NCBI GenBank assembly: GCA_024655865.1
Contig: JANLFM010000005.1
Span: forward strand, 1,695 to 17,578
DNA: 15,884 nucleotides
DNA from: Caldisericota bacterium
GTDB taxonomy: Bacteria > Caldisericota > JANLFM01
Direction of reading: 5' to 3'
Shown: in pieces, positions 3,865-13,362 of the stretch
How the letters are laid out: every line of letters starts with the position of its first letter
Position numbering within the stretch: the first letter of the stretch is position 1
Made by a program: the position numbers and the translations under genes
Notes under the pieces: generated by a model
Told to the model about the DNA's origin: nothing
The model's database searches: none
The model's input: only the letters and a program-made list of their open reading frames with translations

Positions 3865-3872
3865 CTAAATCA

Positions 3873-3912
3873 CTCCCTTCGGGCTAAATGGTTCCGCCTA
3901 AGCGGAACAGGG
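3873..3912 (-). promoter_or_regulatory. Structured rpsF leader, candidate S6:S18 autoregulatory RNA
   Basis: On the minus strand a perfect 7-bp hairpin, GTTCCGC-TTAG-GCGGAAC (3908-3891), is flanked directly by CCCT (3912-3909) on its 5' side. On its 3' side is a 12-base single-stranded segment ending CCCGA (3890-3879), then AGGG (3878-3875). CCCT and AGGG can pair, so the element becomes a stem with a large 3' bulge carrying CCG next to the closing stem. AGGG is part of the rpsF Shine-Dalgarno sequence GGGAG (3877-3873). This layout resembles the known S6:S18-binding leader motif of rpsF mRNAs. The pairing is seen directly; the regulatory role is inferred. No U tract follows, so it is not an intrinsic terminator. 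Confidence 0.6.
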
Positions 3913-3928
3913 TTAAAAATTTCATTGT

Positions 3929-3957
3929 ATTTTACCACATTGAAGGAAAATTTCTAA
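3929..3957 (-). promoter_or_regulatory. Probable promoter of the rpsF operon
   Basis: On the minus strand, TGGTAAAAT (3937-3929) is an extended -10 element. Seventeen bases upstream is TTAGAA (3957-3952), a weak -35 that overlaps the stop codon of the upstream membrane-protein gene. Predicted initiation near 3922 would give a leader of about 58 bases containing the hairpin at 3891-3908. Confidence 0.55.
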
Positions 3958-10836: not shown

Positions 10837-12975
10837 CTATCCCCTTTTGTCAGGGGGAGTTTTTCCGCCTTTGTCCTGTTCGGGGGCATTTAAGTCGTCA
10901 GGAAGCCCTTTACGGCTAAGCCCAATTCGGTGTTGTTCGTCGATTTTGATCACCTTTACTAATACCTGGTCCCCAACCTTGAAAAGATCCTCTATTTTGC
11001 CGATTCTTTTATCGGAAATCTGGGAAATGTGCAAAAGGCCCTCTTTCCCTGGGGCAATCTCAATAAAGGCACCGTAAGTGGCCAGACGGGTGACTTTTCC
11101 CATGTAAACGCTTCCGATTTCCACGTCCCCTACAAGCAAATCAATCTGCTGTTTGGCTTTCTGGCAAGCTTCGGCTGAGGGAGCTGTAATAAAAACGCGA
11201 CCTGTCTGCTCGATATCAATCACCGCGCCTGTTTCCTCAATTATTTTCTTGATCACTTTACCCCCAGGGCCAATTACTTCCCGAATCTTGTCCGTATCTA
11301 TCTCCATCACCAGCACTCGAGGAGCGTTGGGGGAAAGTTCCGGCCTGGGAGCAGGAATAGTCTCCTTGATTTTCTCCAGAATAAACAAACGAGCATCGCG
11401 AGCCTGGGATAGAGCTTTTTTCAAAATATCAATATCGATTCCCTTGATCTTCATGTCCATCTGCAAGGCGGTGATGCCTTTAGCTGAGCCAGCGACCTTG
11501 AAATCCATATCACCAAGGGCATCTTCCATTCCTTGAATATCTGTCAGGACAGCTACTTTATCGCCTTCCTTGATCAACCCCATGGCAATTCCTGCTATGG
11601 GCGTTTTGATGGGGACTCCTGCATCCATGAGAGCCAGAGTGCTTCCACAAACTGAGGCCATGGAGGTAGATCCGTTGGACTCGAGCACTTCAGATACCAG
11701 TCTTATTGTGTAGGGGAAGTCATCCTGGGAAGGAATTACTGGCAGGAGCGCTCTCTCGGCGAGGGCCCCGTGGCCGATTTCTCGCCTCCCCGGCCCCCTT
11801 AGCGGGCGGACCTCTCCGGTCGAGAAAGGAGGGAAGTTGTAGTGGTGCATATATCTCTTGTATTCCTCAATCCCCAGACCCTCAATTATTTGCACTTCGC
11901 CGATGGCACCCAGGGTGAGGATCGTGAGCACCTGAGTCTGCCCTCGGGTAAAAAGACCGCAGCCGTGAACCCTGGGAAGAATCCCTACTTCGCAGGAAAT
12001 AGGCCTGATTTCCTCAGGCCTTCTCCCATCCGGTCTGATACCTTCCTCGAGGATCATCCTGCGGGTTTCTTCCTTGAGGATTTTCCGTTCGATCTCTTGA
12101 ATTAAAAGGTCCTGGTCAGGGAAATCAGGTGAGAGTTTGGCCCTGATCTCTTCATCAATTTTGGCCAGAGTTTCCTCGCGCTGCTTTTTCTCGGCAATTT
12201 TAATTGCCTCCCTGATAAGGGGTCGTGCTGCCTCGTCGACAGCAGTCACTAGTTCAGGAGGAGGCAGAGTTTCCACAATCTCTAACTTCGGCTTGCCACA
12301 AACCTCAACCAGGGATTTCTGGAGGTCGATGATCTGCTTAATTTCCTGGTGTGCGTACTTCAGGCCCTCCAGAATCAACTCCTCAGGCGCCTCCTTTGCC
12401 CCGGCTTCCACCATAATTATGGCATCTTCGGAGGCAGCCACAATCAAATCCAGTTGGCCTTCCTCAATTTCTACGTAAGAGGGGTTTACCACGAACTTAT
12501 CGTTAAGGTAGCCAATACGCACTGCGCCGATGGGACCGGAAAAGGGAATCGGGCTCATAGAAAGGGCCGCTGAGGCTCCGATCATAGCCGCAATGTCGGG
12601 AGGGTAATTGGGGTCTGCAGCCAATACTTTGGCCACTATTTGCACGTCGTTTCGCATGGAGGAAGGAAAGAGGGGGCGAATGGAACGGTCGATAAGGCGG
12701 GATCTAAGAATCTCCTTCTCAGAAGGTCTGCCCTCTCTCTTGAAGAATCCTCCGGGGATTTTTCCTGCGGCATAAAGCCTTTCCTCATAATCCACAACTA
12801 AGGGGAAAAAGTCTATCCCCTCTCTAACCGTGGGAGAGATGCAGGCCGTGACCAATACCACGTTATCTCCGTGACGTACCGTAACCGCACCGGCAGCCTG
12901 TTTTCCCAGTTTGCCCGTTTCTAAGGTGAGCTTTTTTCCGCCGATTTCTACTTCTTGAATAGTAACGTTTTCCAA
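10837..12975 (-). CDS. pnp: Polyribonucleotide nucleotidyltransferase (PNPase)
   Basis: Phosphorolytic 3'-to-5' exoribonuclease and polymerase, acting as a trimer in mRNA turnover. Its 712 residues contain a first RNase PH domain (about 5-145, with [10 protein letters not shown] at 75-84), a helical linker (about 240-310), a second RNase PH domain (about 315-540, with [15 protein letters not shown] at 396-410 and catalytic Asp485 and Asp491 in MEDALGDMD), a KH domain with GPGG at 569-572, and an S1 domain (about 620-690, [15 protein letters not shown]). A short charged tail ends in DKRG. Translation begins at TTG 12975, with AAGGAAG seven bases upstream inside the rpsO end; the gap to rpsO is four bases. 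The rpsO-pnp pair is conserved across bacteria. No long leader hairpin of the E. coli autoregulation type fits in this gap. Confidence 0.98.
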
Positions 12976-12979
12976 GCTA

Positions 12980-13249
12980 TTACTTCCTTAAGCCTAAAGC
13001 CTTAATCAAGTTAGTGTACCTTTCAGTTGATTGCTTCTTTAAGTAGTTGAGCAATCTTCTCCTTTCACCCACCATCTTCAGAAGCCCTCTCCGAGAGTGG
13101 TGATCCTTAGTGTGGATTTTCAGGTGCTCAGTCAAAAGGTTTATCCTTTCCGTGAGAATTGCTATTTGCACCTCGGGTGAACCAGTATCCAGTTCATGGA
13201 TCTGGTATTTTTTGATAATTTCCTGCTTTTGCTCCTTACTTAAAGTCAA
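12980..13249 (-). CDS. rpsO: 30S ribosomal protein S15
   Basis: Small-subunit protein S15, an early binder of 16S rRNA at the h20-h21-h22 junction. It has 89 residues, the standard length, with [19 protein letters not shown] (18-36) and the RNA-binding [15 protein letters not shown] and [10 protein letters not shown] segments. The start codon is TTG at 13249, five bases after a perfect AAAGGAGG. It heads the long rpsO-pnp-dut-udg-rnj-ftsK-DUF951-ychF unit and has a structured leader and promoter directly upstream. Confidence 0.97.
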
Positions 13250-13253
13250 TTTT

Positions 13254-13320
13254 TCCTCCTTTATATCTTTCCATTTTTCCCCAAACCGAGCATATAGTCT
13301 GGAGGAGGCTATGGCTCAGT
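13254..13320 (-). promoter_or_regulatory. Structured rpsO leader, candidate S15 autoregulatory pseudoknot
   Basis: On the minus strand ACTGAGC (13320-13314) pairs with GCTCGGT (13291-13285) over seven positions, with one G-U. After a small internal loop, ATAG (13312-13309) pairs with CTAT (13297-13294), leaving an 11-base loop, CCTCCTCCAGA. The loop segment TCCTCC (13306-13301) is an exact complement of GGAGGA (13259-13254), the rpsO Shine-Dalgarno region. A pseudoknot covering the ribosome binding site is therefore possible. S15 is known to repress its own translation through a pseudoknot in E. coli and through other folds elsewhere. The complementarity is seen; binding of S15 is inferred. 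Confidence 0.65.
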
Positions 13321-13333
13321 ATGAGGTAATAAT

Positions 13334-13362
13334 ATTCTAACATAGATAGAATGCAGGGTAAA
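13334..13362 (-). promoter_or_regulatory. Probable promoter of the rpsO-pnp operon
   Basis: On the minus strand, TTTACC (13362-13357) is separated by 17 bases from TAGAAT (13339-13334), with TGT directly before the -10 as an extended element. Predicted start near 13327 gives a leader of about 78 bases that begins just before the hairpin at 13320. Confidence 0.65.

Follow-up and report, generated by a model that had tools for sequence, protein, structure and literature searches.

The question raised by this locus is whether the leader of rpsO, the gene for ribosomal protein S15, is an autoregulatory element and, if so, whether it belongs to a known class or forms one of its own. S15 leaders are a textbook case of one protein being controlled by unrelated RNA folds. 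The stretch of Caldisericota DNA analysed here (hereafter the window) is 15,884 nt long and belongs to a genome of 1.82 Mb (G000). The earlier note on this DNA had proposed an S15 leader with a pseudoknot between a loop and the Shine-Dalgarno (SD) sequence by which the ribosome binding site would be masked, and this remains the best-supported reading: with a probability that we put at roughly 75%, the rpsO leader is a diverged form of the Bacillota-type autoregulatory S15 leader, forms a loop/SD pseudoknot, and mediates repression by S15.

Gene arrangement and promoter

On the minus strand, rpsO (uS15; 12980-13249; PF00312, E = 1.3e-37) starts with TTG and is followed by pnp (PNPase; 10837-12975, minus strand), which begins 4 nt past the rpsO stop codon; the order ribF-rpsO-pnp is as in Bacillus. 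Six genes (rpsO, pnp, dut, UDG, RNase J, and ftsK) are overlapping or spaced by about 10 nt or less, a 189-nt gap separates this run from ychF, and a promoter-like site precedes rpsF. The nine-gene unit envisaged earlier was therefore overstated, and direct S15 control of the whole gene run is not supported; coupling of the adjoining pnp to the control of rpsO is possible.

A sigma-70-type promoter-like site (13362-13334, minus strand) lies ahead of the leader hairpin described below, with a -35-like hexamer TTTACC (13357-13362), a 17-nt spacer, and a -10-like hexamer TAGAAT with a TG extension (13334-13339). Given the usual spacing from -10 to +1, transcription is predicted to start at approximately 13327, just 5' of the hairpin, and a comparable promoter layout was observed 5' of the hairpin in the leaders L087 and L089. 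A start downstream of 13300, which the earlier note had raised as an argument against a leader, was rejected because the promoter-like site sits upstream.

Elsewhere in the window, the rpsF leader (3865-3930, minus strand) contains a hairpin, GUUCCGC-UUA-GGCGGAAC, and then CCCGAAGGGAG ahead of the start; a promoter-like site is present at 3956-3929. It is a candidate S6:S18 leader, for which no Rfam match was obtained.

Architecture of the leader

The rpsO leader comprises about 78 nt on the minus strand (ACCUCAUACUGAGCCAUAGCCUCCUCCAGACUAUAUGCUCGGUUUGGGGAAAAAUGGAAAGAUAUAAAGGAGGAAAAA) and folds into a three-part hairpin of 16 bp (13326-13279). The lowest helix, P1a, pairs CCUCA (13322-13326) with UGGGG (13279-13283, assigned from the fold) and shows compensatory changes in structure-aligned relatives. 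A U.U mismatch separates it from P1b, in which ACUGAGC (13314-13320) pairs with GCUCGGU (13285-13291, assigned from complementarity and the fold) over 7 bp including one U.G, so that P1b contains a C-G followed by a U.G, i.e., a C-G/U-G tandem. Beyond an internal loop (C/AU), P2 pairs AUAG (13309-13312) with CUAU (13294-13297, from the fold) and carries an 11-nt apical loop, CCUCCUCCAGA (13298-13308). The folding energy of the 49-nt hairpin was -19.1 kcal/mol, compared with -10.2 +/- 2.4 kcal/mol for dinucleotide shuffles (z = -3.7; none of 200 shuffles was as good). P1a, P1b, and P2 are all present in the minimum-energy structure, in which two extra pairs close within the apical loop. The earlier description of a two-part hairpin was right about helix 13320-13314/13291-13285 but missed the lower one (13326-13322/13283-13279), and the hairpin is longer than had been described.

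The apical loop is an exact complement of the SD sequence AGGAGGA (13254-13260, minus strand), its proposed pseudoknot partner, in two equally exact registers: UCCUCC (13306-13301) with GGAGGA (13259-13254), and CCUCCU (13308-13303) with AGGAGG (13260-13255). The first of these, with GGAGGA ahead of the TTG start, had been noted previously with the right coordinates. A 6-nt loop/SD match is expected by chance in 1.5% of random 11-mers and 2.5% of shuffled loops, and in roughly 416 kb of the source genome (twenty 20-kb stretches plus the window), such a match was carried by six of the 252 genes that have an SD, rpsO being one of them. The match in a single genome is thus not rare and, taken alone, would not carry the claim; it rises above chance because it is conserved in all four relatives and fits the covariance model described below. 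A chance hairpin was rejected on the same grounds of conservation.

Conservation within the class

Sampling at the family, order, and class levels yielded the same five genomes. All five have retained the hairpin together with a loop/SD match of six pairs. In one of them (G004), both loop and SD have changed (UCCCUC/GAGGGG), and the pairing is shifted one base further on. Since MAFFT misaligned P2 of L088 and L090 among the five family leaders, these were aligned by hand to fit the structure; in that alignment, pairing is seen in 73 of the 80 stem cells, 9 of the 16 pairs have changes on both sides, and none of the five leaders departs from the C-G/U.G/G-C run of P1b. In an unfitted alignment of the five rows, covariation measures were no higher than those of shuffles, although the true register was 86.8% paired, compared with at most 57.8% for slid registers.

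Loop/SD pairing across a wider sample

Among S15 loci from 80 other genomes, a recurrent leader was found, with the layout GAACC..GCUAGG....CGA..CUCCGACG....CUUGGC...UGGnGAU...AAGGAGGUGA. Its structure, including the loop/SD helix, covaries strongly across 46 of these leaders (score of 0.303 vs. 0.126 +/- 0.011 for shuffled alignments and at most 0.114 for slid versions of the structure), with nearly all double changes falling within the two stems.

The loops of these leaders are complementary to the SD region. Most Bacillota loops contain CUCC, the complement of GGAG, with CUCCGA nearly invariant. In Syntrophomonas-like leaders the register is shifted, UUCACC matching GGUGAA on the 3' side of the SD core. 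In the Bacillus leader UCACC matches GGUGA; relatives within the phylum of the window show UGGCC/GGCUA, CCCUCC/GGAGG, and UCCUC/GAGGA. When SDs were swapped between leaders, loops scored higher with their own SD, both in the full set of 71 leaders (p = 0.0005) and in the subset of 21 loops that lack CUCC (p of about 5e-5). Neither value is corrected for common descent, and loop boundaries in the extra families were set by hand. The CUCC loops alone showed no preference for their own SD on swapping (p = 0.45), as is expected because loop and SD are both invariant there.

These data bear on the strongest alternative, according to which S15 binds a folded hairpin or three-way junction, a CUCC-like loop is kept for S15 or tertiary contacts, the SD match is incidental, and repression is steric. 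The near-invariance of CUCCGA in most Bacillota loops and the lack of own-SD preference in CUCC loops are compatible with it, and the literature names a three-way junction for the Bacillus-type operator (PMC10931766; PMC4684408). Speaking against an incidental match are the changed loops (UUCACC, UGGCC, CCCUCC, UUCCUC, and UCCCUC), which mostly still complement their own SD region, and the better fit of non-CUCC loops to their own SD than to those of others, and we regard this alternative as unlikely. The sequences of the relatives give good grounds for proposing that a loop/SD pseudoknot is conserved, and they suggest that loop/SD pairing may be a general part of the S15 switch.

The pairing is not universal. 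In one genus of the window's phylum (L120 and L124-L135), the rpsO leaders keep a CUCGG..CUGGG hairpin with a loop, UUCCGGCUGGA, that lacks a good SD complement, and loop/SD pairing has there been lost or replaced. The rpsO leaders of a further family, f2 (L091, L093, L094, L101, and L105), are different, with a hairpin CCUUAACC..GGGUUAAAGG. Most of the 5' strand of this hairpin, CCUUAACCU, is complementary to AGGUUAGG adjoining the SD as well; the two mutually exclusive helices would make a possible switch.

Relation to known S15 leaders

The Bacillota (Firmicutes) S15 leader has been validated for Geobacillus kaustophilus / B. stearothermophilus (PMC4684408), reportedly also in work by Scott and Williamson from 2001 and 2005. 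The window leader has in common with the Bacillota leader its position before rpsO, the P1a-P1b-P2 layout, the C-G/U.G in P1b, and a loop complementary to the SD region. It differs in that P1b lacks the rRNA-type G.U/G-C pair beside the internal loop, so that of the GU/GC recognition motif of the class only the C-G/U.G tandem is kept, and in that its loop has a repeated anti-SD (CCUCCUCC); the genome set also places its lineage in another phylum. Whereas the published Bacillota fold is a three-way junction, the window leader is drawn as a hairpin plus a loop/SD pseudoknot, and on a sequence-level view its secondary structure shows no third conventional helix of the kind that would mimic 16S h20-h21-h22.

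A covariance model of the 46 other leaders, nearly all from Bacillota and with the SD included (R1), matched the window at 13332-13252 with 24.3 bits over the full length of the model. In a search of the whole 1.8-Mb genome, this site ranked first (E = 0.055), the runner-up scoring 19.7 bits, although part of the score at the window was contributed by the SD. R1 also recovered rpsO leaders at 49 bits in Bacillus velezensis and 46 bits in Listeria, as well as leaders in several more genomes from the phylum of the window. With a model of the same type cut before the SD (R2), the sister leader L089 (genome G004) was recovered with E = 0.00028, the window leader matched weakly (10.4 bits, E = 0.52), and the L088 and L090 leaders were not found. 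The homology of the window leader consequently rests on L089 as an intermediate, with which it aligns, together with position and layout. The records L136 and L137, which contain ribF-rpsO-pnp, are PLSDB 'plasmid' entries of Bacillus velezensis (0.8 Mb) and Listeria (0.4 Mb) but resemble chromosome fragments.

An Rfam scan of the window gave no match to RF00114, the gammaproteobacterial S15 leader, even at E values up to 5. The same scan found no S15 match in five of six Bacillota-type leaders, the exception being a weak RF00114 match, under the gathering score, in a Thermincola leader; the Rfam comparison proposed in the earlier note is therefore silent on novelty, because Rfam misses Bacillota-type leaders too. 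The E. coli leader (RF00114) shares with the window leader a U-G/C-G tandem and a pseudoknot, the latter published for E. coli and proposed for the window leader. The U-G/C-G element is required in the E. coli operator (PMC10931766), and in the mycobacterial rpsO leader, whose 5' UTR forms a pseudoknot upstream of the start codon, it is needed for repression by S15; kissing loops have been proposed for M. tuberculosis (PMC8470358).

The earlier suggestion of a distinct class, i.e., an S15 leader that evolved independently in this lineage only and converged on an anti-SD loop, draws on the weak match of the SD-free model at the window, the failure to match L088 and L090, and the ease with which S15 regulators arise (PMC5100602). 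We consider it quite improbable, since the SD-free model does recover L089 from the same family, R1 scores no site in the genome higher than the window leader, and the layout is common to the Bacillota (Firmicutes) S15 leader. Still less probable is a structure independent of S15, such as a hairpin shielding the mRNA from RNase J or an element that simply lowers translation or is sensitive to temperature: only a few nt separate the hairpin from the predicted 5' end and an RNase J gene is encoded downstream, but the layout and the loop/SD match are common to rpsO leaders of many lineages including that of Bacillus, to which the experimentally validated, S15-responsive leader of Geobacillus kaustophilus belongs (PMC4684408).

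Proposed mechanism and implications

For the favored reading of a diverged Bacillota-type leader, we propose that the 5'-terminal hairpin (P1a-P1b-P2) would display a loop with the letters of the 16S rRNA tail. That tail, the anti-SD, carries CCUCCU, and because the loop has the same letters, loop and 30S subunit would compete for one SD. S15 in excess of its 16S rRNA sites would bind the hairpin or pseudoknot, probably contacting the C-G/U.G tandem in P1b, which resembles the U-G/C-G element of the E. coli and mycobacterial operators, together with the stacked helices. Binding would stabilise the loop/SD pairing and thereby block initiation at rpsO, and pnp may be affected through coupling.

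A broader proposal is that an H-type loop/SD pseudoknot, instead of or besides the three-way junction, is the regulatory core, conserved but previously undescribed, of Bacillota-type S15 leaders as a whole and extends into a neighbouring phylum. We advance this tentatively, with the odds against it. The loop/SD pairing offers a simple compensatory-mutation test of the mode of repression, and the analysis shows that a leader class unrecognised by an Rfam scan can still be captured in a model and traced into other lineages. If the broader proposal is true, a loop with the sequence of the 16S tail would tie the operator of Bacillota and beyond to those of E. coli and mycobacteria, which are pseudoknots.
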